A stretch of DNA of 60,493 bases, taken from the NCBI GenBank assembly GCA_005800655.1, contig SYEV01000103.1, positions 1 through 60,493 of the forward strand, in the 5' to 3' direction. The notes under the pieces were generated by a model. The model had not been told where the DNA came from, did not search any database, and was given only the letters and a program-made list of their open reading frames with translations. Of the stretch, positions 8,947-58,518 are shown piece after piece. Made by a program: the position numbers and the translations under genes. Numbering within the stretch: the first letter of the stretch is position 1; every line of letters begins with the position of its first letter. Source of the DNA: Bacteroidota bacterium. GTDB lineage: Bacteria; Bacteroidota; Bacteroidia; Chitinophagales; Chitinophagaceae.

Positions 8947-10356
8947 ATGGATCAAAATTTTAATCCCGATAAGCAACATACCTTAAGCAAAAGTATCAGT
9001 ATTAGTGGCACCGGTTTGCATACAGGCGTGTTGGTGGATATGACCTTGACTCCGACCAACCCAGGTTATGGGATCCAATTTCAAAGAGTTGATTTACCCA
9101 ATAAACCGACCATTAAAGCAGATTGCGATTTAGTCACAGATACTAGCCGCGGAACTACCTTACAAGTAGGTGATGTAAAAATTAGTACTGTTGAACATAT
9201 TTTAGCAGCCCTAGTTGGCATGGGCGTTGATAATTTATTAATTGAAGTAAATGGTCCTGAGATTCCAATAATTGATGGAAGTTCTAGTCCCTTTATTGAA
9301 AAAATAGAAGATGCAGGGATTTTTGAACAGGATGCTGCAAAAGCATGGTATATTATTGATGAAAATATATTTAACTACGACGATGAGAAGCGTGTTGAAA
9401 TGGTGGCACTCCCTGCGCTTGATTATCAAATTACGACACTGATTGATTTTAATAGTCCCGTATTAGGCACACAGCATGCAGCATTAAAAACCATCAAAGA
9501 TTTTAAAGCAGAGATTGCACCTTGTCGCACTTTTTGTTTTTTACATGAATTAGAAACCTTACTTAAAAATGATTTGATTAAAGGCGGTGATATCAATAAC
9601 GCTATTGTAGTTGTGGATAAGACTGTGTCCAGTGAGGAAATGAGTAGATTAGCTAAAGTATTTAAGCGTGATAAAATTGAAGTAAAAAGCGAGGGGTATT
9701 TAAATAATTTGGAATTGAGATTCCCGAATGAACCAGCAAGACATAAATTATTAGATGTGGTAGGCGACTTAGCTTTAATTGGTTATCCAATTAAAGCACG
9801 CATTATTGCCAATCGTCCAGGGCATAGTAGTAATGTGGAGTTTGCTAAAAAAATTAAGCAGTACATTAAAAAAAATAAACACGTTAAGGATGTACCCGTA
9901 TATAATCCTGCGGAAACTCCCGTGTTTAATTTAGAACAAATTGAAAAAACATTACCACACAGACATCCGTTTTTATTTATTGATAAAATCATTGAATTAA
10001 CAGACACGATGATTGTGGGTGTCAAGAATGTCACTTACAATGAATGGTTTTTCCCTGGACACTTTCCAGGAAATCCAGTCATGCCAGGTGTTTTACAAAT
10101 TGAAGCATTAGCCCAAACAGGTGGTATATTGTGTATCAATGCAATGCCTAAAGGACAATACGATACTTACTTTTTAAAAATAGATAATTGCAAATTCAAA
10201 CAAATGGTAAAACCAGGTGATACCATGTTGTTGAAAATGGAATTAACCTCCCCTATTCGTCGTGGTATTTGTGAAATGAGAGGCACGGTATATGTTGGAG
10301 GTAAAGTAGCTACCGAAGCTGATTTAGTAGCACAAGTAATTAAAAGAGCAGAATAA
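8947..10356 (+). CDS. lpxC-fabZ: Bifunctional LpxC deacetylase / FabZ dehydratase
   Basis: Fusion of two enzymes. Residues 1-310 are the zinc deacetylase LpxC (committed step of lipid A), with ligands His84 in VEHILAAL, His266 and Asp270 in [11 protein letters not shown], and the active-site His293 in PGHSSN. Residues 325-469 are FabZ, the 3-hydroxyacyl-ACP dehydratase of fatty acid synthesis, with His372 in GHFPGNP and Glu386 in LQIEALAQ. The fusion is characteristic of Bacteroidota. The start is set at ATG 8947 because it gives [10 protein letters not shown]; an in-frame TTG at 8911 lies in the upstream spacer. 61 bases separate it from lpxD. Confidence 0.95.
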
Positions 10357-21364: not shown

Positions 21365-21433
21365 AATTATTTTTTAAAATTCGTTTAACCCATTTTTGAT
21401 TACTCCATTCGGGTTTTAATTATCCACCATTAT

Positions 21434-44427: not shown

Positions 44428-46686
44428 ATGGATTTATCCGAACTACATAACGAAGCCAAAATCGCATCCAAATACGATTTAAATGAAGAACAAGAAAATA
44501 AAGAAATTGTTCGTCAGTACCGTGCATTGCTCAGAGCCATTCGTGAAAAATTAAAAAAGGGGGACAAGGAACTATTGCGCACCGCTTTTGAGATGGCTAC
44601 CCAAGCGCATAAAACCATGCGTCGTAAAAGTGGCGAGCCTTATATATTGCACCCCATTGCAGTGGCCATGATTTGTGTGGAAGAAATTGGATTGGGGGTT
44701 CGAAGTACCATTTGTGCTTTATTACACGACACCATTGAGGATACGGATTTAACTTTAGATGATGTCAAGAATGAATTTGGGAATGAAATTGCAAAAATAG
44801 TTGACGGATTAACCAAGATTTCTGGTGTCATGGATGCCAATAGTAGCCAGCAAACTGAAAATTTCAAAAAGATTTTATTGACCCTGACCGATGATCCTAG
44901 GGTGATCTTAATAAAACTAGCGGACCGCTTAAATAATATGCGTACCCTAGATTCGATGAAGCAAGAAAAGCAATTAAAAATTGCCTCTGAAACAATTTGG
45001 GTATACGCACCCTTGGCCCACCGTATGGGTTTGTATAATTTAAAAACCGAGTTGGAGGATTTATCCATGAAATACATGGAGCCAGATACTTATAAAGAGA
45101 TTGCCAAAAAATTAGCGGAAACAAAGCGAGAAAGAACCAAATACATCAACGAATTTATTCGCCCCTTAAATGAAAAATTAATTCCCGAAGATTTTGAATT
45201 TGAAATGCATGGTCGCCCAAAAAGCATTCACTCCATTTGGAATAAAATAAAAAAGAAAGGGGTCAGCTTTGAAGAAGTGTATGATTTATTTGCCATTCGC
45301 ATTATTATAGATGTGCCCTTAGAAAAAGAAAAGGAAGCATGTTGGAAAGTTTATTCCTTAATTACGGACGAATACCTACCCTCTCCTGAAAGATTACGTG
45401 ATTGGTTGAGCAACCCAAAGAGTAACGGTTATGAAGCCTTGCACACCACGGTTATGGGGCCACAAGGGAAATGGGTGGAAGTGCAAATCAGAACAAAGCG
45501 AATGAATGAGATTGCAGAGAAAGGATTAGCTGCACATTTTAAATATAAGGAAGGTTCACAAAATGAAGATCGATTTGATAAATGGTTTGTTCAAATTAGA
45601 GAAGCGCTTAGCAACCAACAAGAAGAAGGCATTGATTTTTTACAAGATTTTAAAACCTCTTTTTTAGCAGAGGAAATTTATGTGTACACGCCAAAAGGGG
45701 AAGTGAAAATGTTGCCCATAAACAGCTCGGCCTTGGATTTTGCTTTTTATATCCATACCGCTATTGGATCCAAATGTATTGGCGCTAAAGTGAATCATAA
45801 ATTAGTACCCATTAGCCATAAATTACGCAGTGGTGATCAAATTGAAATTATCACTAGTAATAAGCAAAAGCCCAATGACGACTGGCTCAATAATGTGGTC
45901 ACTGCGAAAGCTAAAAACAGTATTAAGGATGCTTTGCGGGAAGAAAAAAAATCAATTGCAGAGGAAGGCAAATATACCTTACAACGAAAATTGGAAAGTA
46001 TTGGCGCGCCCTATAGCCCTTACAATATTGACCAATTAGTCAATTATTATAAACAGCCTAGTCAACTTGATTTGCATTTTAAAATCGCAAAAAAGCAAAT
46101 TGAATTAAAAGAGCTAAAATTATTCTTGGTCCTAGGTGATAAAATTGAAGCCCCTAAACCCATCCTCATTGTACCCGAACCTAGTCAAGATACCCATTCA
46201 AATAAATTTATTCCAAAAAAGGAATCCGAACTGATTATTTTTGGAGAATCTAGCGATCAAATAAAATACAGTTTGGGAAAATGCTGCAATCCAATTCCAG
46301 GGGATGATGTTTTTGGTTTTGTGAGTACAGGAAAAGGCTTAATCATTCATCGAACCAGCTGCCCCAATGCCACCCAACTTTTGGCAAATTATGGCCATCG
46401 GGTAGTGAAAACCAAATGGGCAAAAAATAAAGAAATTTCCTTCCTAACAGGGCTTAGTATTGTGGGAATGGATGATGTGGGTGTGGTAAATAATATTACC
46501 ACCATTATTAGTGGGGAACTTAAAATTAACATTGCTGCCATCACCATCGAATCCAAGGACGGCTTGTTCGAAGGAACCATCAAAGTGTATGTTCACGACA
46601 AAGACGAACTTGAATTATTGGTAGAAAAAATAAAATCAGTGAGTGGAATCCAACAAGTTAACAGATTTGACACCGAAACTGTGTAA
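44428..46686 (+). CDS. Bifunctional (p)ppGpp synthetase/hydrolase (Rel/SpoT)
   Basis: Stringent-response enzyme of 752 residues. HD hydrolase domain: LLHDTIEDTDLT with intact HD. Synthetase domain: GRPKSIHSIWNKIKKKG through NGYEALHTTVMGP and VEVQIRTKRMNEIAE. The charge motif before NPKSNGY reads RLRD, the basic form seen in bifunctional enzymes (RXKD) rather than the acidic EXDD of RelA. TGS (IYVYTPKGEVKMLP), a Cys-rich section (GKCCNPIPGD) and a C-terminal ACT domain follow. The start is ATG 44428 (MDLSELHNEAK); a TTG at 44407 adds seven residues. purA lies downstream. Confidence 0.94.
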   Translation: MDLSELHNEAKIASKYDLNEEQENKEIVRQYRALLRAIREKLKKGDKELLRTAFEMATQAHKTMRRKSGEPYILHPIAVAMICVEEIGLGVRSTICALLHDTIEDTDLTLDDVKNEFGNEIAKIVDGLTKISGVMDANSSQQTENFKKILLTLTDDPRVILIKLADRLNNMRTLDSMKQEKQLKIASETIWVYAPLAHRMGLYNLKTELEDLSMKYMEPDTYKEIAKKLAETKRERTKYINEFIRPLNEKLIPEDFEFEMHGRPKSIHSIWNKIKKKGVSFEEVYDLFAIRIIIDVPLEKEKEACWKVYSLITDEYLPSPERLRDWLSNPKSNGYEALHTTVMGPQGKWVEVQIRTKRMNEIAEKGLAAHFKYKEGSQNEDRFDKWFVQIREALSNQQEEGIDFLQDFKTSFLAEEIYVYTPKGEVKMLPINSSALDFAFYIHTAIGSKCIGAKVNHKLVPISHKLRSGDQIEIITSNKQKPNDDWLNNVVTAKAKNSIKDALREEKKSIAEEGKYTLQRKLESIGAPYSPYNIDQLVNYYKQPSQLDLHFKIAKKQIELKELKLFLVLGDKIEAPKPILIVPEPSQDTHSNKFIPKKESELIIFGESSDQIKYSLGKCCNPIPGDDVFGFVSTGKGLIIHRTSCPNATQLLANYGHRVVKTKWAKNKEISFLTGLSIVGMDDVGVVNNITTIISGELKINIAAITIESKDGLFEGTIKVYVHDKDELELLVEKIKSVSGIQQVNRFDTETV

Positions 46687-48496: not shown

Positions 48497-49537
48497 TTAG
48501 TCACTTATCTTATATAAAGACTGTATAGAGGCCTGTAAAATTTCATTTTTATGGGCCTCGAATATTTCTAGCTTATCCTTTGGAAGTATTAATTCAAAAG
48601 ATTTTCCAGTAGCCAATACTTTTTCAATTTGTGGATTTAAGTTCATGAGTTTTTCAAGCGGAAAGGACACAAACTCCGCAATAATTTTTGCGCTATACCT
48701 TCCTTTGATTTCCAACCTCGCTAAATTAGCATTGCCTTCCTCCTTTTTTTTAATTAAAGTGGGCTTATTTAAATAGGTAACCAAATTGGTTTGATCTGAT
48801 TCAAAAACATAAATAGTGGCTATGAACTTTTTTACATGATCTCTGGTTTCAAGCGGCAGTTGATACTGCAAGGCCCAAAAATCATTGGTCTTCATTTTTT
48901 TAATCGTCTGTCTCAATCTGCCTGCACCTCCATTATATGCTGCAACGACCAATAACCAATCGCCAAACTCATCATACAGCTCCTTCAAAATAGTTGCAGC
49001 TGCCTGCGTGCTTTTTTCATAATCGGTTCGCTCATCACTGGGTGTTAACTTTAATCCTAAACGAGTGGCTTCTGCAGGCATAATTTGCCATGGACCAACT
49101 GCGCCTGCGGATGAAGTTACTACCGAACTCAAATGACTTTCAATCACACTTAAATATTTTAACTGTGTTGGTATTCCTTTGCTTTCCAATATAACATCAT
49201 ATAAATTAAAATAAGGCTTGGCCCATGATTTCATTTTCCGCAAGCCCACACCCTGCTTATCCATATAAGTTTGAATAAAACTGATGGCTTTTTCATTGAG
49301 CTCATATTGCAAAGGCCCTTTTTTAACTTCTGCAGCATTGACCGTAAACAAACTAGTAAATCCTACCCTAAATTGGGTGTTGGTATCTTCCAGGTTTTTT
49401 TGAACAGCTAAAGTGGAAGGCTTGACCGTATCGTAATGATTATATCCTGCAGCAATTACCTGTAATTGAATCAATGAAAATGCAAGTATAATATTAGAGA
49501 TACGCTTAATAATATGATAGGTGCGCTTAGGGTACAT
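48497..49537 (-). CDS. Membrane-associated lytic murein transglycosylase (MltD-like)
   Basis: Cleaves the glycan strand of peptidoglycan. N-terminal hydrophobic segment at about 13-30. The SLT domain has the catalytic Glu133 in YLSVIESHLSS, then GAVGPWQIMPAEATRLG and the VVAAYNGGAGRLR block, as in the MltD family. A LysM-like C-terminal section (about 280-335, with FPLEKLMNLNPQI) could bind peptidoglycan. 346 residues. It lies 12 bases downstream of gatA on the same strand. The UuuxxE class (MltD versus MltC) cannot be fixed with certainty. Confidence 0.88.
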   Translation of the reverse strand: MYPKRTYHIIKRISNIILAFSLIQLQVIAAGYNHYDTVKPSTLAVQKNLEDTNTQFRVGFTSLFTVNAAEVKKGPLQYELNEKAISFIQTYMDKQGVGLRKMKSWAKPYFNLYDVILESKGIPTQLKYLSVIESHLSSVVTSSAGAVGPWQIMPAEATRLGLKLTPSDERTDYEKSTQAAATILKELYDEFGDWLLVVAAYNGGAGRLRQTIKKMKTNDFWALQYQLPLETRDHVKKFIATIYVFESDQTNLVTYLNKPTLIKKKEEGNANLARLEIKGRYSAKIIAEFVSFPLEKLMNLNPQIEKVLATGKSFELILPKDKLEIFEAHKNEILQASIQSLYKISD

Positions 49538-49549
49538 GATTTATAAATG

Positions 49550-50998
49550 CTAGGTAATTTTAGATTTTAGGAGGGCTTCCGAAAATTGTAGTAACCCCGT
49601 TTCATTATATGAGGCACTCATCACCTGCAAGCCAAATGGCATTCCATTCGAGTGTTTAAATAACGGCAATGAAATTGCAGGGATCCCAACTAAGTTGGCA
49701 TAAACTGTATATATATCTGCTAAAAACATTTCAGTGGCAGTATGATGATGCGCACCTAAATTAAAGGCAGTCGTTGGAACGGTAGGACAAACGAGCATTT
49801 CATATTTTTTGAACAATTCATTGGTTAAATCTACTAGCTGTTGTCGCACTTGTTGCGCCTTTGTAAAATACGCATCAAAATAACCGGCACTCAAAACAAA
49901 GGTTCCTAATAATATTCTTCTTTGTACTTCGGCACCAAATCCTTCCGTCCTACTTAACTTATATAAATCAGTTAAATCAGCCATGGGTTCGCTAGTTCTA
50001 TGTCCAAATTTTATTCCATCAAATCGCGATAAATTACTGGAGGCCTCTGCAGTTGTTAATACATAATAAGTTGGCACCAGATAATTGAGCAATGGGAAGT
50101 CAATAGCTTCCACCATATAACCAGCAACTTTTAATTGCTCGAGGTAGGCTGTAGTTTTATTTTTAATTTCCTGATCCAAACCCGGATGCGAAAGTGTTTC
50201 TTTAAAGTAGGCCACTTTTTTAGGCGTCGCTTTATTTAATTCATTGGAATAGGAAGGAACAGGTTTCGAAGATACCGTACTGTCAAATTCATCGGGTCCT
50301 GCGATTACTTCAAGTACCAATGCGGCATCAAAAACTGATTTTGAAAATATACCAATTTGATCAAAGGAAGATGCATAGGCAATTAAGCCATACCTTGAAA
50401 TGCGACCATAACTTGGCTTGAGTCCAATTACGCCGCAGAAATCTGCAGGCTGCCGAACTGAACCACCGGTATCTGATCCCAAACTTACCATGCACATATC
50501 AGATTGCACGGCTACGGCTGAACCACCTGATGATCCACCTGGCACTTTGGTAGGATCCAATCCATTTTTTACTGGACCGTATGCTGAATTTTCATTACTA
50601 CTTCCCATCGCAAATTCATCGCAATTTTGACGACCAATAATGATGGCACCCTCTGCCAATAATTTTTCAATGGCAGAAGCTGAATAAACAGCCGTATAAT
50701 TTTCTAAAATTTTTGAAGCGGCACTTACTTTATGCCCTTGATAACAAAGTACATCTTTGATGCCCACCACAACGCCATGTAATTTACCCAAAGCGCCACC
50801 TGTAGATTTTTTTTGGGCATGTAATTCATCTAATGCAATAGCACGCTGTTTAGCGTCTTCAGTAAATACTTCTAAAAAGGCATTGAGATTTTCATTGCGC
50901 GCAATTTGATCCAAGTAAGAATCCACTGCTCGAACGCATGACATGCTTCCTGCTTGTATAGCAGTATGGTAGTCTTTGATTGTAGTAAAACGAAACAA
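49550..50998 (-). CDS. gatA: Glutamyl/aspartyl-tRNA amidotransferase subunit A
   Basis: Amidase that supplies ammonia for converting Glu-tRNA(Gln) or Asp-tRNA(Asn). The Ser-cisSer-Lys triad is intact: Lys81 in GIKDVLCY, Ser156 in GGSSGGSA and Ser180 in GSDTGGSVRQP, with spacing as in S. aureus GatA (79/154/178). 482 residues. The start is TTG 50998, giving MFRFTTIKDYH; no ATG fits. gatB and gatC are not in the window, so the complex is encoded at more than one locus. The close neighbour tatA is 58 bases upstream. Confidence 0.93.
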   Translation of the reverse strand: MFRFTTIKDYHTAIQAGSMSCVRAVDSYLDQIARNENLNAFLEVFTEDAKQRAIALDELHAQKKSTGGALGKLHGVVVGIKDVLCYQGHKVSAASKILENYTAVYSASAIEKLLAEGAIIIGRQNCDEFAMGSSNENSAYGPVKNGLDPTKVPGGSSGGSAVAVQSDMCMVSLGSDTGGSVRQPADFCGVIGLKPSYGRISRYGLIAYASSFDQIGIFSKSVFDAALVLEVIAGPDEFDSTVSSKPVPSYSNELNKATPKKVAYFKETLSHPGLDQEIKNKTTAYLEQLKVAGYMVEAIDFPLLNYLVPTYYVLTTAEASSNLSRFDGIKFGHRTSEPMADLTDLYKLSRTEGFGAEVQRRILLGTFVLSAGYFDAYFTKAQQVRQQLVDLTNELFKKYEMLVCPTVPTTAFNLGAHHHTATEMFLADIYTVYANLVGIPAISLPLFKHSNGMPFGLQVMSASYNETGLLQFSEALLKSKIT

Positions 50999-51056
50999 AG
51001 GCTAAAATGTTAATTGATAAAAAATAGATTGGCGATCCACAGGTATGTCAAAAAAA

Positions 51057-51245
51057 CTAAGAAGCTTTTTCGTCTTTTTCTTTGATACCTTCTTCGATTT
51101 CTTTTTTTACATTGTTTTTAGCATCGTTGAATTCACGGATACCCTTTCCTAATCCACGCATAAATTCAGGGATTTTTCTTCCGCCAAACATCACTAAAAT
51201 AACCACACCAATAATTAATAATTCTTGAAATCCTAAGTTGCCCAT
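51057..51245 (-). CDS. tatA: Sec-independent protein translocase subunit TatA/E
   Basis: 62 residues: one membrane helix (about 6-21, LLIIGVVILVMFGGRKIPEF), the Phe-Gly hinge, an amphipathic helix and a charged tail. This is the TatA/TatE pattern of the twin-arginine pathway for folded proteins. tatC is not adjacent. It is transcribed from the far side of a terminator that closes rplS, with 112 bases between that hairpin and its start and no obvious TAnnTTTG. Confidence 0.93.
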   Translation of the reverse strand: MGNLGFQELLIIGVVILVMFGGRKIPEFMRGLGKGIREFNDAKNNVKKEIEEGIKEKDEKAS

Positions 51246-51341
51246 AATGTTAAATTTAGAATATTAAAGGTAAGGTAATTATAAAATAGAAAGTACACTA
51301 TTTTTAAGGTTTTCATAGATTAAAAAGTCGGAAAATGGCAT

Positions 51342-51371
51342 AAAAAAACCGTCCCGAAAAACGGGACGGTT
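51342..51371 (-). terminator. Rho-independent terminator after rplS
   Basis: Minus strand: AACCGTCCCG (51371-51362), loop of 5, CGGGACGGTT (51356-51347), then a T run to 51342. It closes rplS before tatA. The remaining gap down to tatA holds nothing I recognise. Confidence 0.9.
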
Positions 51372-51414
51372 CAATATATAAGCTAGTACTTTACCCTTGA
51401 AATGGTAATAGCAG

Positions 51415-51765
51415 TTAGAATCTTTTTTCCTTAATACGCGCACTCTTACCGCTTCTGTCTCTCAAGTAGTACAATTTAGCACGACGTACTTTACCAGACT
51501 TGTTCAATAAGATAGAATCAATATTTGGTGATAGGATTGGGAATAAACGCTCAACACCTACGCCATCAGAAATTTTACGTACTGTAAATGATGCAGTGGC
51601 ACCAGTTCCTTGGGTTTTGATTACATCTCCACGGAAACTTTGGATACGCTCCTTACCACCCTCTACAATTTTGTAGTTTACGGTAATATTATCACCAGCT
51701 TTGAAGGCTGGATATTCTTTTTTTGCTGTTAATTGCTCGTGTACAAATTTTACTGCTTCGCTCAT
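51415..51765 (-). CDS. rplS: 50S ribosomal protein L19
   Basis: 116 residues of the L19 family at the 30S-50S interface. Motifs: PAFKAGDNITVNYKIVEG, IQSFRGDVIKTQG, the conserved GVGVERLFPILSPNID and GKVRRAKLYYLRDRSGKSAR. It is monocistronic, bounded by a strong promoter and a terminator, and not linked to trmD/rimM/rpsP as in many bacteria. Minus-strand orientation matches its neighbours rny and tatA. Confidence 0.97.
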   Translation of the reverse strand: MSEAVKFVHEQLTAKKEYPAFKAGDNITVNYKIVEGGKERIQSFRGDVIKTQGTGATASFTVRKISDGVGVERLFPILSPNIDSILLNKSGKVRRAKLYYLRDRSGKSARIKEKRF

Positions 51766-51787
51766 AATACATTGTTTTTGCGGACGG

Positions 51788-51819
51788 CAAAGGTAGGAGA
51801 ACCCACCTTATTATCCAAA
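51788..51819 (-). promoter_or_regulatory. rplS promoter (-33 and -7)
   Basis: Best promoter in the window: TTTG (minus, 51819-51816), 20-base spacer, TACCTTTG (51795-51788). Both boxes match the Bacteroidota consensus at the expected distance. The leader to ATG 51765 is about 18 bases. Confidence 0.72.
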
Positions 51820-51845
51820 TTATTTGATCTTAAATTAATATTCCA

Positions 51846-53411
51846 CTACCTGGCTATGTTCACTGCCCTTTTTTCACGAATTACCGTCACCTTAATTTGA
51901 CCAGGATAAGTCATTTCAGTTTGAATTTTTTGTGCAATTTCAAAGCTCAATTGGTCTGAGGACTGATCGGTCACTTTTTCAGCTTCCACAATCACCCTTA
52001 ACTCACGACCAGCCTGAATCGCATACGCTTTTTCTACCCCTTGGTAGTTCATGGCTAGGTTCTCTAAGTCCTTGATTCTCTGTATGTACTGTTGCATGAT
52101 TTCTCTTCTCGCTCCTGGTCTTGCTCCGCTAATCGCATCACAAGCTTGGATAATTGGAGAAATCACATATTGCATCTCCATCTCATCGTGGTGGGCACCA
52201 ATTGCATTCACCACCGCCGGGTTTTCACCATATTTCTCCGCCAATTTAGCCCCTAATAAGGCGTGGCTTAATTCAGTTTCTTCGTCTGGAACCTTACCTA
52301 TATCGTGTAATAAACCTGCTCTTTTCGCCAATTTCGGATTCAATCCTAATTCGGCAGCCATAATTCCACATAAATTAGCTGTTTCACGAGAGTGCATCAA
52401 TAAGTTTTGGCCATAAGAGGATCTGAATCTCATTTTACCAATAATTCTGATCAACTCTTTATGTAAACCATGAATACCTAATTCAATGACTGTTCTTTCA
52501 CCAATCTCCGCAATTTGATCCTCTAACTGACGACGTGTTTTTTCAACCACTTCCTCAATACGCGCTGGATGTATACGACCATCGGTAACTAATCTCTGTA
52601 AACTTAAACGCGCAATTTCACGACGCAATGGATCAAAGGATGATAATAAGATGGCTTCCGGAGTATCATCTACAATTAAATCCACCCCCGTTGCTGCTTC
52701 AATCGCACGAATGTTACGACCTTCTCTACCAATTATTTGACCTTTCATTTCATCTGATTCCAAATTAAACACAGTCACTGTATTCTCGATAGCAACCTCA
52801 GCTGCTGTACGTTGGATAGATTGTATAATAATTTTACGTGCTTCCTTGTTTGCTTTTTGTTTTGCCTCTTCAATAATTTCTTGCTGTAAAACTAGGGCCT
52901 GTGTTTGTGCCTCATTTTTCAAGCTTTCAATTAATTGTTGTCTTGCATCATCTGCACTCAAGTTGGCAATTTTTTCCAACCTGCGAATATGCTCTTCTTG
53001 ATGCTTCTCTAATTCAGTGCGCTTTACATTGATTAAGTCAATTTCACGATTTAATTTTTCTTTGATCGCTTCATTGTCTTTTACTTGCTTGTCTAAAGCA
53101 GCTTCCTTTTGATTGGTGCTGATTTCTTTTTGCTTTATTCTGTTTTCAGCTTCTCCGATTTTTTTATTTTTTTCTAATAAATCGCGATCGTAGTCTGACT
53201 TAAGTTGCACAAAATGCTCCTTCGCTTCCAGTTGTTTTTCCTTCCGGATGGTTTCCGCCCTAAGTGCTGTTTCCTTTAAAATGTTAGCTGCTTGCGCTTC
53301 TGCTTCTTCAACTTGCTTTTTTGTATTGCGGGCAAAAACTAGTTTGCCGATGAGTAAACCTCCCGATAAGGAAGCAACTCCAATGATGACAAATAATATT
53401 GTTTGGTCCAT
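51846..53411 (-). CDS. rny: Ribonuclease Y
   Basis: Membrane-anchored endoribonuclease that initiates mRNA decay. 521 residues: N-terminal membrane helix (about 4-23), long coiled coil (about 30-190), KH RNA-binding domain ([16 protein letters not shown]) and an HD domain with [12 protein letters not shown] and GAHHDEME. Length is normal for the family. It is separated from zapA by 225 bases with a hairpin, an unusually long gap for this window. It lies upstream of rplS on the same strand, 81 bases apart. Confidence 0.95.
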
Positions 53412-53636
53412 TGTTTAAATCTTGTTTTTTTAAAATAATGCATACTCCCCTTTTTCTTTGTTAATGAGTTAAAAACATTAATCCTATATTATACATAAAT
53501 CATTGATAATCACCTATAGCAAGCTTCGTTCACACAAAAATTACAAGATGACGTATTTCGATTTTCTATAATGCGTCAAAGGTTCCGCTACGAAGATAAT
53601 CAAATAATGGAAAGAATGGAGTCGATGGGGGGTAAT
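53412..53636 (-). other. Long upstream region of rny with hairpin
   Basis: 225 bases without a gene. On the minus strand there is an AACCTTTG (53584-53577; 7 of 8 to TAnnTTTG) with TTTG (53604-53601) 16 bases ahead. Overlapping and downstream lies a 7-bp stem GACGCAT (53577-53571) / ATACGTC (53556-53550), one G-U pair. An outer CTTCG/CGAAG pair (53595-53591 and 53528-53524) may enclose it. It could be a structured 5' leader of rny or a small RNA such as 6S; unproven. Confidence 0.35.
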
Positions 53637-53948
53637 TTATGAAGCAGATAGTGCTTTATCTACCCAATTCGTGAGGGTATCAATCTGTTTTTGGGCTGTT
53701 TCAATCTCATATAGGTTGGACCCCGTTTTTTGCTGCTCGGTGGTAAACCACAATAAAACCATAGAAATATAGTCCTGCTGATCCTTACCGGCATAGGCAT
53801 TTTTAAATTCTACCATCTTTTGATTGATTAAAGCGGCAGTTTTGCGAACCGCCTCCTCGTCCTTGGCAGAAATTTTAACACGATAGGACCTGTCAGCAAT
53901 GGTAATATTAATAGGGATCAAGTCCACCTTTTCAGTATTGTCTGACAT
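53637..53948 (-). CDS. zapA: Cell division protein ZapA
   Basis: FtsZ-ring-associated protein that cross-links FtsZ filaments. 103 residues; N-terminal beta-rich part with IPINITIADRSYRVKI, then a long helix for tetramer formation (about 30-100). Length and the motif set match the family. It starts 3 bases after the upstream coiled-coil gene, so the two are likely co-translated. It follows pheT in the same order as in other Bacteroidota. Confidence 0.9.
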   Translation of the reverse strand: MSDNTEKVDLIPINITIADRSYRVKISAKDEEAVRKTAALINQKMVEFKNAYAGKDQQDYISMVLLWFTTEQQKTGSNLYEIETAQKQIDTLTNWVDKALSAS

Positions 53949-53951
53949 GGC

Positions 53952-54239
53952 TTATGGATTCAGGTTTTTAATAGCAGTATCAATTTCCTTAATGTATTGA
54001 TCAATTTGTTTCACCCACTTTTCCTTATCAGCGGGATTCATTTCAGATTGGTGCATCCTGGAAGCAGTAAACTGATGCTTGGAGGCATTCAATTGTTCCA
54101 ACAACTCCGTATTCTTATTTTCCTGCTTTGTTAAAGATGCTTTAAGCTGTTGGTTCTCCTTGTCCAATACACCATACTGCTTAATTAAAAGCTGTAATTT
54201 TTCTTGTAATTGTTCAAGGGATGTTTTTAAAGCAAGCAT
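53952..54239 (-). CDS. Small coiled-coil protein next to zapA
   Basis: 95 residues, almost entirely heptad-like: LEQLQEKLQLLIKQYGVLD, then KENQQLKASLTKQENKNTE. A C-terminal piece around PADKEKWVKQIDQYIKEID is more variable. No membrane segment. It overlaps no gene, lies 27 bases after pheT and 3 bases before zapA. Shape and position suggest a partner of ZapA, similar in style to ZapB, but it is not recognisably homologous. Conserved in this position in Bacteroidota as far as I recall. Confidence 0.72.
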   Translation of the reverse strand: MLALKTSLEQLQEKLQLLIKQYGVLDKENQQLKASLTKQENKNTELLEQLNASKHQFTASRMHQSEMNPADKEKWVKQIDQYIKEIDTAIKNLNP

Positions 54240-54266
54240 GATTTATTTTTAACAAATTGAATTTAG

Positions 54267-56675
54267 TTATTTTCTAACTTCTGCGGTTAAATTTTTTTCA
54301 AATAATTGTACCAACTTTTTCATCATGGTATCAATTTCAGTATCCATCAATGTTTTATCTGTCGTATTAAATACAAAATTAATGGCCACCGATTTTTTCT
54401 GTGCGCCTAATTTATCGCTCTCAAAAATATCAAATACGCGCGACTCTTTCAATGCATCCAATTTCGCTTCCGTCACACAGGCTTCAATAGCTTCATACTT
54501 GGTATCCTGTGGAATCACCAATGCCAGATCCCTTTCCACTGAAGGATATTTAGATATTTCCTGGTACACCACCTGCTTGCTTTGATAAATCGCAAACAAA
54601 TTAGCAAGGTCAAATTGGATATAAAAAACGGGTTGCTTTATACCAAAGGCTTGTAATTTTTTCGTACCAATGGCTTGTACCGTACCTGTGGTTTTTTTAC
54701 TGATGACATAATCAATTTGATTGGCACTTGTTTGCTTCCATGCGCCTCCCTGCAAGCCTAATAAATTAAATATCGCAGTGGCTATTCCTTTGGCAACAAA
54801 AAAATCAGACAATATTCCTTTCGCTCTCCAACCATCTTGTTGTTGTTTTCCAGAAAGATAAATGGACAATTGCTCCGATTCATAATAAGCACCTTTGGAA
54901 GATTGTCCATACACTTTTCCAATTTCAAATAACGCAATTGAACTTAGTTGACGATTCAAATTATAGGCAATGGTTTCCAATCCTGTTTCTAACATTGAGG
55001 GACGCATCACATCTAAATCAGCACTTAAATTATTCAACATTTTTACAGCACCCGCCAATACTTCTTCTGAAAAATAAGCACTATTGGTAATTGAATTCGT
55101 TAATATTTCTGTGTAGCCGCGGCCCACTAAAAACTGTGCAATTTTATCTTTGAACTTTTCTTTTTTCTCCAATGGATCAATGGAAGGACTCATGGTAATA
55201 ACACTTGGAATTTCAACATTATCCAAGCCATCAATACGTAAAACTTCCTCCACAATATCAGCGGGTATGCTAATATCAGGCTTGTGGTAAGGCACTGCTA
55301 AATCAATACCTTCCGTAGTTTCGTTACTAATTTCAAAACCCAAACTAGTAAGTATTGTTTTTACTTTATCTACTGGATACGTTTTACCACTTAATTTTTT
55401 TAGATAACTAAAACTTAAATGTACCAACGCTTTTTTCGCAGGGTTAGGATATACATCTACCACTTCACTACATTTTCCACCTGCAATTTCTTGTATCATT
55501 TTTGCAGCACGTAACAATACTTTGACCGTGCCATCCACATCTACTCCTTTTTCAAAACGTGTTGCAGCATCTGTCCGAAGGCCATGATGCAATGATGTTT
55601 TACGAATATGTACATTTTCAAACCAAGCACTTTCTAAAAATATATTTGTGGTCGTCGCTTTTACCCCACTTTGTAAACCGCCAAAAACACCCGCAATACA
55701 CATTGGCTTTGCGCCATCCGTAATCATTAAATCATTGGCTTGCGTAGTTCGTTCTACCCCATCGAGTGTAGTGAACTTAGTACCTGCAGCATATTTTTTT
55801 ACGACTACTTTGTTTTCTTTGATCTCACTAGCATCAAATGCATGCAGTGGTTGCCCGGTTTCATGTAATATATAATTCGTAATATCCACGATATTATTAA
55901 TGGAACGTACCCCAATACTTTGCAATCTATTTTTTAACCATGTAGGCGATTCTTTTACTGTTACACCTTCAATGACTAACCCACTATAACGTGCACACCC
56001 TTTTTCATCTTCAATCAAAACTTTAAATGGCGCTACCGATGTATCATGTACCAAATTTTGTATGAATGGACTTACTGCACTCACTGGACTATTATGATAA
56101 GACAAATAAGCACATACATCTTTCGCAACACCATAATGACTCATCGCATCCATTCTGTTGGGTGTTAAACCAATTTCATAAATCCAATCCTGATAGTATT
56201 CGTAAATTTCAGCAACTGGAGTGCCTGCTTTGATGGCAGCATCCAACACAATAATTCCAGCATGGTCATCACTTACCCCAATTTCATCTTCCGCACAAAT
56301 CATTCCTTCACTTTGTTCGCCCCTGATTTTGGCTAATTTCATGGTCATCGGCTCCTTCCCTTTTGGATAGATAGTAGTACCCACAACCGCTACCACCACT
56401 TTTTGACCCACCATTACATTGGATGCACCACAAACAATGCCTAAAGGCGCCGCGCCGCCCGTATCTACTTTGGTCAATTTTAATTTATCTGCATTTGGAT
56501 GTGGTATCACTTCCAATACTTCCCCTACGACTAATCCTGCAAGTCCGCCTTTGAAATTTTCAAAATTTTCTAATGACTCTACTTCCAGCCCTATGGAGGT
56601 TAGGATATTAGATAATTCTTCCGGACGCACCGTTTGGGGTAAATATTCACTCAGCCAGCGATAACTAATCGTCAT
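54267..56675 (-). CDS. pheT: Phenylalanyl-tRNA synthetase beta subunit
   Basis: Beta chain of the (alpha-beta)2 enzyme. 802 residues: N-terminal tRNA-binding (OB) domain with VGEVLEVIPHPNADKLKLTK, B3/B4 editing domain, B5 domain, a catalytic-like core and a C-terminal anticodon-binding (FDX-ACB) domain near SVERDLALVIPQDTKYEAI. pheS is not in the window. It diverges from dnaB across a 277-base region with replication-origin-like features; its own -7 element is in that region. Confidence 0.95.
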   Translation of the reverse strand: MTISYRWLSEYLPQTVRPEELSNILTSIGLEVESLENFENFKGGLAGLVVGEVLEVIPHPNADKLKLTKVDTGGAAPLGIVCGASNVMVGQKVVVAVVGTTIYPKGKEPMTMKLAKIRGEQSEGMICAEDEIGVSDDHAGIIVLDAAIKAGTPVAEIYEYYQDWIYEIGLTPNRMDAMSHYGVAKDVCAYLSYHNSPVSAVSPFIQNLVHDTSVAPFKVLIEDEKGCARYSGLVIEGVTVKESPTWLKNRLQSIGVRSINNIVDITNYILHETGQPLHAFDASEIKENKVVVKKYAAGTKFTTLDGVERTTQANDLMITDGAKPMCIAGVFGGLQSGVKATTTNIFLESAWFENVHIRKTSLHHGLRTDAATRFEKGVDVDGTVKVLLRAAKMIQEIAGGKCSEVVDVYPNPAKKALVHLSFSYLKKLSGKTYPVDKVKTILTSLGFEISNETTEGIDLAVPYHKPDISIPADIVEEVLRIDGLDNVEIPSVITMSPSIDPLEKKEKFKDKIAQFLVGRGYTEILTNSITNSAYFSEEVLAGAVKMLNNLSADLDVMRPSMLETGLETIAYNLNRQLSSIALFEIGKVYGQSSKGAYYESEQLSIYLSGKQQQDGWRAKGILSDFFVAKGIATAIFNLLGLQGGAWKQTSANQIDYVISKKTTGTVQAIGTKKLQAFGIKQPVFYIQFDLANLFAIYQSKQVVYQEISKYPSVERDLALVIPQDTKYEAIEACVTEAKLDALKESRVFDIFESDKLGAQKKSVAINFVFNTTDKTLMDTEIDTMMKKLVQLFEKNLTAEVRK

Positions 56676-56698
56676 ATTGCATCTTTATGGTATAGCTT

Positions 56699-56706
56699 CA
56701 AAAGTA
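56699..56706 (-). promoter_or_regulatory. Promoter -7 element of pheT
   Basis: TACTTTTG on the minus strand, full match to TAnnTTTG, ends 23 bases before ATG 56675. Confidence 0.5.
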
Positions 56707-56732
56707 CAAATTTTTGAGTGCTTTTTAGGTAA

Positions 56733-56758
56733 AAAATAGCCCCTCCAAAATAGCCCCT
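56733..56758. repeat. 12-bp direct repeat, period 14
   Basis: AAAATAGCCCCT occurs at 56733-56744 and 56747-56758. It stands between the pheT promoter and the DnaA-box-like cluster. Confidence 0.7.
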
Positions 56759-56781
56759 TTTTGACCCTAGGCAGGGACCAA

Positions 56782-56952
56782 GGTGGATAAGCGCAAAATG
56801 TTAGTGGAAATCCCGTGAATAACCGAATTTTATTGTGGATACTAGATAGTGAAGCCCTGTGTATAAGGGGATTGCAAAACTAAATTTCTTGAATTGCTAA
56901 TTTGGTTTGATTTTCGCATTAGAAATTTACCCAATCTTATTTATTAATTATT
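56782..56952 (+). other. DnaA-box-like cluster and AT-rich tract; candidate oriC
   Basis: Four same-orientation 9-mers resemble TGTGGATAA: GGTGGATAA (56782-56790, 8/9), CGTGAATAA (56814-56822, 7/9), TGTGGATAC (56834-56842, 8/9) and TGTGTATAA (56858-56866, 8/9). An 86-base tract of about 74% A+T follows, up to dnaB. The layout fits a small origin with an unwinding region, or DnaA control of dnaB. Confidence 0.45.
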
Positions 56953-58518
56953 ATGGCTTTACCCAATATAAATACCAATCGTACCAAAAAGAAAACTGCC
57001 AATGTTGATATTAGCAGTATGATGTATGGAAAAATTCCACCTCAGGTGCGCGAATTAGAAGAAGCGGTATTAGGTGCCATCTTATTAGAAAAAAGTGCGT
57101 TTGATACGGTGACAGAAATTTTGAAACCAGAATGTTTTTATGTTGAATCACATCAAATGATTTATCGTTCGATGCAAAGTTTACAACAAAAAAATATGCC
57201 CATTGACATGTTGACGGTGGTGGAAGAATTAAGGATGCAAGAAAACTTAGACATTGTTGGCGGTGCTTATTATATTTCTAAATTAACCAATGTCGTTGTT
57301 TCTACTGCGAATATTGATGCACACGCAAGAATCGTTTTGCAAAAATTTATTCAACGAGAATTAATTAGAATTAGTGGAGAAGTGATTGCGAATGCTTATG
57401 AGGATAGCACGGATGTTTTTGATTTACTTGATGATAGTGAAACAAAAATGTTTAACATCACCAATAACTATTTAAAGAAAAATTTCGTTGATATTGGTTT
57501 TGCTTTGGCAACCGCGATTACAAGAATTGATGAATTAAGAACGAAGAAAGATGAAATATCTGGTGTGCCTAGTGGCTTTGCCAGCTTAGATAGAATTACG
57601 TATGGTTGGCAACCCACCGATTTAATTATTTTAGCGGCACGACCTTCCGTAGGTAAAACTGCATTTGCATTGAACCTTGCACGTAATGCTGCATTGCATC
57701 CTACAAAACCACAACCCGTTGGCTTTTTTAGTTTGGAGATGAGCGCCTCTCAATTGGTGCAACGTATACTAAGTGCGGAGAGTGAAATTAAAATGGAAAA
57801 AATTTCAAGAGGTAAATTAGAGGATTACGAATACCAACAATTGCATGCAAAAGGTATTAAGCGTTTAGAATCGGCCCCTATTTATATTGATGACACTGCG
57901 GCTTTAAACATTTTTGAATTCAGGGCAAAGGCACGTAGATTAGTGAACAAACATCAGGTTAAAATTATCATCATTGACTACTTACAATTAATGAGTGGAT
58001 TGGGTGATCGTAATTCAAATAGAGAACAAGAAATTAGTAATATATCGCGAAGTTTAAAGGCCTTGGCCAAAGAATTAAATATTCCAATCATTGCTTTATC
58101 TCAGTTGAGTCGTGCGGTAGAAACAAGAAAAGAAAGCAAGATGCCGCAATTGAGTGATTTGAGAGAATCAGGCGCGATTGAGCAAGATGCGGACATGGTT
58201 ATGTTTATCTATCGTCCTGAATATTACGAGGTAATGAGTAATGAAATGGGAGAAAGCACACAAGGTGAAACCCATATCAGAATTGCCAAGCACCGTAATG
58301 GTTCTTTGGATTTAATTAAATTAAGAGCGCGCTTAGATATCCAACGTTTTGAAGAATGGGATGGCGAAGGGGGTATACCAGGATTGGGCAGTAATTACAA
58401 GCCTGTTTCCTCACTCCCAGGAAATACAAGCAACGACGGTGGCCGCTTTTTTATACAAGGAAGTAAAATGAATGGCGGCGAATTTGATGAAGGCATCAAC
58501 GACGACCAACCCTTTTAA
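56953..58518 (+). CDS. dnaB: Replicative DNA helicase DnaB
   Basis: Hexameric RecA-fold helicase that unwinds the fork 5'-3' and recruits primase. The N-terminal collar domain begins VRELEEAVLGAILL. The RecA-like domain has Walker A ARPSVGKT (229-236), GFFSLEMSASQLV and IIIIDYLQLMSG, and the DnaB block LRESGAIEQDADMV. 521 residues, with a Gly-rich C-terminal tail typical of Bacteroidota. It starts 87 bases after the last DnaA-box-like site, and the two DNA-replication features may be linked. Confidence 0.96.
   Translation: MALPNINTNRTKKKTANVDISSMMYGKIPPQVRELEEAVLGAILLEKSAFDTVTEILKPECFYVESHQMIYRSMQSLQQKNMPIDMLTVVEELRMQENLDIVGGAYYISKLTNVVVSTANIDAHARIVLQKFIQRELIRISGEVIANAYEDSTDVFDLLDDSETKMFNITNNYLKKNFVDIGFALATAITRIDELRTKKDEISGVPSGFASLDRITYGWQPTDLIILAARPSVGKTAFALNLARNAALHPTKPQPVGFFSLEMSASQLVQRILSAESEIKMEKISRGKLEDYEYQQLHAKGIKRLESAPIYIDDTAALNIFEFRAKARRLVNKHQVKIIIIDYLQLMSGLGDRNSNREQEISNISRSLKALAKELNIPIIALSQLSRAVETRKESKMPQLSDLRESGAIEQDADMVMFIYRPEYYEVMSNEMGESTQGETHIRIAKHRNGSLDLIKLRARLDIQRFEEWDGEGGIPGLGSNYKPVSSLPGNTSNDGGRFFIQGSKMNGGEFDEGINDDQPF

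Follow-up and report, generated by a model that had tools for sequence, protein, structure and literature searches.

The window, the whole 60,493-nucleotide stretch of DNA that was analysed, lies on contig C96 of a freshwater bacterium whose 1.9-Mb genome is in 116 contigs. The closest relatives of its DnaB protein, among the best 80 of 584 matches, are in records titled as Sediminibacterium, Chitinophagaceae, Chitinophaga or Bacteroidetes MAGs. The dnaB and pheT genes diverge from a gap that holds four DnaA boxes in the same orientation, all matching TTATNCACA on the minus strand within an 85-base span (56782-56866):

54267..56675, minus strand: pheT, phenylalanine--tRNA ligase beta subunit (TIGR00472, E = 3.3e-234)
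56676..56952, no strand: divergent pheT/dnaB intergenic gap of 277 bp that bears the array (from ORF ends and families)
56782..56790, minus strand: DnaA box 1, TTATCCACC, 8/9 motif match
56814..56822, minus strand: DnaA box 2, TTATTCACG, 8/9 motif match
56834..56842, minus strand: DnaA box 3, GTATCCACA, 8/9 motif match
56858..56866, minus strand: DnaA box 4, TTATACACA, 9/9 motif match, closest to dnaB
56867..56952, no strand: A+T-rich dnaB side of the gap, 74% A+T by composition, including the GATTTTCGCAGTAAGAAAA block
56953..58518, plus strand: dnaB, replicative DNA helicase (TIGR00665, E = 4.8e-154, above the curated cut-off)

The six family-scanned ORFs at 48497-56675 all lie on the minus strand, and dnaB, the rsmE gene directly after it and the next ORF, which has no family match, all lie on the plus strand. 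The host dnaA gene sits on a separate contig (C29), and its protein carries the signature GGRDHTTVIHSC, which is associated with the box sequence TTATNCACA.

A first-pass annotation of this DNA had proposed that the gap is a replication origin or a DnaA-controlled dnaB promoter. Its description of the locus is largely borne out: there are four boxes in one orientation within 85 bases, about 86 bases of roughly 74% A+T separate them from dnaB, and gene orientation switches at the gap. Three boxes match at 8/9 as it had stated, and the fourth is a perfect match. Successive boxes are 32, 20 and 24 bp apart. In 4000 dinucleotide shuffles the gap never reached four boxes (mean 0.36), and it is also the site of the densest cluster of matches of at least 8/9 in the 60.5-kb window, with four per 120 bp against three for the runner-up. 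The annotation erred in reporting a single 8/9 match elsewhere (21420-21428), since the window holds 83 matches to TTATNCACA at 8/9 or better. Four of these are perfect (6549, 9612, 36948 and 56858), and the one at 9612 reads TTATCCACA itself. With so many scattered matches it is the clustering that argues for an array, as the annotation had reasoned.

The array recurs in related genomes. For the best 80 of 584 loci, we scanned the dnaB upstream region to a maximum length of 450 bp (two of them, L007 and L022, have less than this). These loci are placed in the Chitinophagaceae on the basis of record titles, which in some cases give no more than Chitinophagales, Sphingobacteriia or Bacteroidetes, and they are related rather than independent; the DnaB of one (L015) is 100% identical to that of the window. 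At least one box of 8/9 or better is present in 80/80 of them, at least two in 74, at least three in 66 and at least four in 42. The total is 287 boxes (238 on the minus strand, 49 on the plus strand, 47 of them perfect), compared with 58 when the reversed motif is searched in the same sequence. The mean is 0.61 boxes in 450-bp windows drawn at random from these loci, where overlap with the gap was allowed. In the 62 of the 80 loci with an ORF start that matches dnaB, box density is 7.65/kb in the dnaB gaps and 1.94/kb in 409 other gaps of at least 100 bp, and the dnaB gap is the richest in 53 of these 62 loci. Absence of the boxes from the same gap in relatives, which the annotation had named as a sign against its proposal, is thus not what we find. 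Among 20 loci from other families of the order, four have no minus-strand box, ten have one and six have two to four (the wider-order scan retained 123 loci after duplicates and cut loci were removed), and the sequence signal is therefore weaker beyond the nearest relatives.

When the window is aligned with 14 close relatives (15 rows), the boxes are conspicuous within an otherwise diverging gap. The TGTG of box 4 is identical in 15/15 sequences and that of box 3 is invariant or at least 90% conserved, box 2 is partly kept with an invariant GT and GTTAATAA in some rows, and the columns of box 1 are gapped in three rows (L004, L006 and L013). Across the relatives, distances between boxes on the same strand peak at 11, 21-22, 32 and 41-44 bp, which are whole helical turns. 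Six periods were compared, and the best fits are at 10.5 and 10.67 (R = 0.56 for 254 pairs from related genomes). Some relatives have close pairs, with starts 10-12 bp apart, and the window has none.

The array follows dnaB and not its upstream neighbor, since pheT is not constantly beside it. Loci average 3.02 minus-strand boxes when a PheT match is found upstream (63 loci, at distances of up to 3.8 kb and above 600 bp in 9/63) and 2.62 when it is not (13 loci, whose neighbors are mechanically called ORFs); the remaining four loci, with short upstream sequence, average 3.50. The A+T-rich side of the gap also contains a block near 56909-56926 with the consensus GATTTTCGCAGTAAGAAAA in the alignment of close relatives. 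This block may be the core promoter or transcript start of dnaB, and a sigma-70 promoter scan found no signal above chance.

The strand composition around dnaB bears on whether chromosome copying could start here. Raw cumulative GC skew of the window reaches its minimum at 56767, and one relative with a single-contig genome (G016) likewise has a raw skew switch close to dnaB. Raw skew is misleading at this locus because it tracks gene strand, and both local switches disappear when skew is corrected by taking third codon positions split by gene strand. In three single-contig relatives sampled in 20-kb blocks (40 for G016, 40 for G010 and 20 for G036, plus 20 further stretches), the interpolated skew minimum is at 2.34 Mb in G016, 0.94 Mb in G010 and 2.12 Mb in G036, and dnaB is at 2.64, 1.42 and 1.95 Mb, respectively. 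The separations are therefore ~297, ~476 and ~166 kb. G016 and G036 are close relatives that count almost as one. A distant skew minimum is what the first-pass annotation had listed as evidence against an origin. Corrected skew in the blocks that flank dnaB has the same sign on both sides, positive in G016 and G010 and negative in G036. It is also negative on both sides in the window (left -0.100 for plus-strand and -0.213 for minus-strand genes; right -0.093 for plus-strand genes over 3.5 kb only) and in the pooled 14-locus close clade (left -0.082 and -0.104; right -0.052 and -0.097), which was picked by hand from loci with ~88-91% or 100% DnaB identity.

We also summed the skew of minus-strand genes to the left of dnaB and plus-strand genes to the right within each locus, so that the coding effect cancels and a value near zero is expected at an origin. 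Enough third positions were available in 63 of the 80 loci. The sum is significantly negative in 12/14 loci of the close clade and positive in none, and the 49 other loci divide into 7 negative, 20 positive and 22 undecided. These signs suggest that dnaB lies inside a replichore, and it appears to be in opposite replichores in different relatives, with the array kept throughout.

A better origin candidate emerged from blocks that were selected by skew. In all three single-contig relatives, blocks at the skew switch hold box clusters (G036 at 2340528, G016 at 2294351 and G010 at 949502) in a partly common arrangement, placed between nadA (PF02445) and a gene for a SurA_N/rotamase protein that we name ppiD here. 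The gaps on the ppiD side, each with boxes, a CTACTACTATTA trio-like repeat and an A+T-rich core, are as follows:

Host, L325 (G000:C75), ~45503-46000: ppiD-side gap
G016, L278:4098-4577: ppiD-side gap
G010, L272:4515-5000: ppiD-side gap
G036, L271:540-1019: ppiD-side gap

Skew switches between the blocks starting at 2.25 and 2.27 Mb in G016, where the interpolated minimum is ~45 kb from the ppiD gap. In G010, raw skew is negative at 945-950 kb and positive at 950-970 kb. The switch is blurred in G036, with blocks near zero or weakly negative over 2.24-2.36 Mb and a minimum 0.22 Mb from the ppiD gap. Toward the unwinding side, the core consists of ATATACACA, a four-base spacer, TAATAGTAGTAG (in G016) and an A+T-rich stretch. 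The order of box, spacer and trio is that described for the basal unwinding system (PMC8287927), and the trio is much like the one reported for C. difficile oriC2 (PMC7561715).

Three strict trios follow a box of at least 7/9 in 7/20 ppiD gaps, in one of which (G014) the match is elsewhere in the gap, and in 0/80 dnaB gaps. When the third trio is relaxed, a form that was framed after viewing the sequences, the counts are 19/20 and 0/80, and the sole ppiD gap missed is cut at 358 bp. The host ppiD is on contig C75 and has the core upstream in this relaxed form. Inspection by eye places the core upstream of nadA in those genus members that were viewed; among loci from other families, a loose form of it was seen in four and none in five others. 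The ppiD gap is ~342 kb from dnaB in G016, ~386 kb in G036 and ~467 kb in G010. These features make it probable that the ppiD gap is oriC, and on sequence grounds it is a better origin candidate than the dnaB gap.

The nadA side of this locus is variable. No NadA match was found in the host genome, and one is absent from 20/37 genomes of its genus (host included, and many of them incomplete), so the candidate is often without its nadA neighbor. Six genus genomes have a diverged NadA with 52-59% identity instead, and the G036 nadA (L282/L309) is split near its start into two overlapping frames by a frameshift or sequencing error. Corrected skew around the core on host contig C75 is +0.076 for plus-strand and -0.047 for minus-strand genes on the left and -0.019 for plus-strand genes on the right. 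This is no clean switch, and the case for an origin in the host's own genome therefore comes solely from the core.

If the dnaB gap were the chromosomal oriC, then DnaA would assemble on the boxes, open the adjoining A+T-rich stretch and load DnaB there. The same-orientation cluster, which exceeds chance, the A+T-rich stretch and the gene-strand switch all fit this picture. The raw skew minimum at 56767 and the raw switch in G016 fit as well, but both follow the gene-strand switch. In E. coli and B. subtilis, DnaA opens DNA 3' of TTATNCACA. The A+T-rich side of the gap is instead 5' of the boxes, and the 3' side is 61% A+T compared with 63% for the window. The A+T-rich stretch is consequently more likely to be a promoter and leader than an unwinding element. 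A box followed by a DnaA-trio was found in 0/80 dnaB gaps when boxes had to match at 7/9 and in 2/80 when 6/9 sufficed, with none in the window, so that the succession of box, trio and 3' A+T-rich element is missing. The gap also does not lie at the replication skew switch, judging from the minima ~0.17-0.48 Mb away in the three single-contig relatives and from corrected skew of one sign on both flanks in those relatives and in the window's clade (the right side of the window being only 3.5 kb). Finally, the host has a ppiD-side core on another contig. Skew, conservation and architecture together lead us to reject an origin at dnaB, which we regard as very improbable, and the dnaB gap looks like a site other than the one where copying starts. 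An origin beside dnaA was also rejected; no 250-bp stretch in the nine dnaA loci scanned contains more than two boxes that match at 8/9 or better, and in the single-contig genomes of G016, G010 and G036 some 396-419 kb separate dnaA from dnaB.

The main rival to control of dnaB is a DnaA titration site. A locus for titration or nucleotide exchange, resembling datA or DARS and merely located beside dnaB, would also have dense, conserved boxes away from the likely oriC, and conservation of the array cannot by itself separate the two functions. IHF and Fis sites accompany datA and DARS. In the available account of the E. coli system, datA and DARS provide much of DnaA titration (PMC12371093). A free titration site need not keep its place, but the array keeps its orientation upstream of dnaB in loci without PheT and in the other replichore, and we therefore consider titration unlikely. 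The repeats could alternatively be sites for another regulator with a TGTGNATAA-like motif. Many units do have a different first or last base, GTGAATAACC and GTGCAAAACC being examples from the clade consensus, yet 47 of the units in dnaB gaps of the best 80 of 584 loci match TTATNCACA perfectly and the same motif is found again at the separate ppiD-side candidate. A regulator other than DnaA is thus highly unlikely.

We favor the interpretation that the array is a putative DnaA-binding control region of dnaB rather than oriC, with a probability of roughly 0.7. The array itself, its conservation and phasing, its linkage to dnaB, the canonical DnaA signature and the missing origin signs all point this way, and conserved boxes directly upstream of the gene are what a DnaA-regulated promoter would have. 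Several DnaA molecules would bind the same-orientation boxes on one helix face immediately ahead of the dnaB promoter, and the bound DnaA would raise or lower dnaB transcription with DnaA level or nucleotide state. Helicase supply would thereby track replication initiation. Here we infer DnaA binding, the change in transcription and its direction; activation and repression are not separable from sequence. Within the array of the window, box 4 is the sole perfect match, and no two boxes form a pair 2-3 bp apart, a spacing that E. coli DnaA is described as favoring (PMC11317965). The Caulobacter dnaB gene has predicted DnaA boxes and is a reported member of the DnaA regulon (PMC8203912). Of the two functions offered by the first-pass annotation, the origin is contradicted by skew, the missing trio and the ppiD candidate, and the predicted promoter gains from conservation, phasing, linkage and the Caulobacter precedent. 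Literature searches limited to open-access papers turned up no title or abstract reporting DnaA-controlled dnaB in Bacteroidota or a ppiD-side origin.

A second conserved DnaA cluster is present in the gap between mraZ and queA, where two boxes face each other ~90 bp apart:

L210:3772-3970 (G036); L335 (G000:C36:5150-5700); L336-L338: mraZ/queA cluster

This was the richest box cluster in the first G036 samples. Two perfect convergent boxes are found in 11/60 genomes, nine of them in the genus, and 5/9 are confirmed beside mraZ; the cluster is retained with weaker 8/9 boxes in the host (C36) and in three close relatives examined. The mraZ side of this gap has repeated ACCACTT words, which we presume may be MraZ sites. 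Tentatively, then, there could be a Chitinophagaceae DnaA regulon with conserved arrays at dnaB and mraZ and an origin upstream of ppiD, far from both and from dnaA. If so, DnaA would set the timing of helicase supply and of division along with that of initiation. A scan for boxes alone would place an origin at the dnaB gap, a call that the present result corrects, and DnaA-controlled helicase supply becomes a prediction that can be tested in Bacteroidota. The ppiD-side gap provides a concrete origin candidate of the kind needed for metagenome growth-rate estimates.

Three kinds of characterized systems resemble the dnaB array. Origins with a basal unwinding system, as described in PMC8287927 and for C. 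difficile oriC2 in PMC7561715, likewise have boxes near an A+T-rich stretch, but the dnaB gap has no DnaA-trio, has its A+T-rich stretch on the opposite side and is off the skew switch; these missing features are found upstream of ppiD. The datA, DARS1 and DARS2 loci of E. coli are also box clusters outside the origin in the account cited (PMC12371093), whereas the array here is fixed upstream of dnaB. The array also resembles DnaA-regulated promoters, such as those of nrdAB and dnaA in E. coli and of dnaB and dnaQ in Caulobacter crescentus, in which a replication gene is described as directly preceded by several boxes (PMC8203912). Compared with the promoters described there, the predicted dnaB control region is a helically phased, same-orientation array of ~3-5 boxes, known from sequence and conserved in related Bacteroidota.
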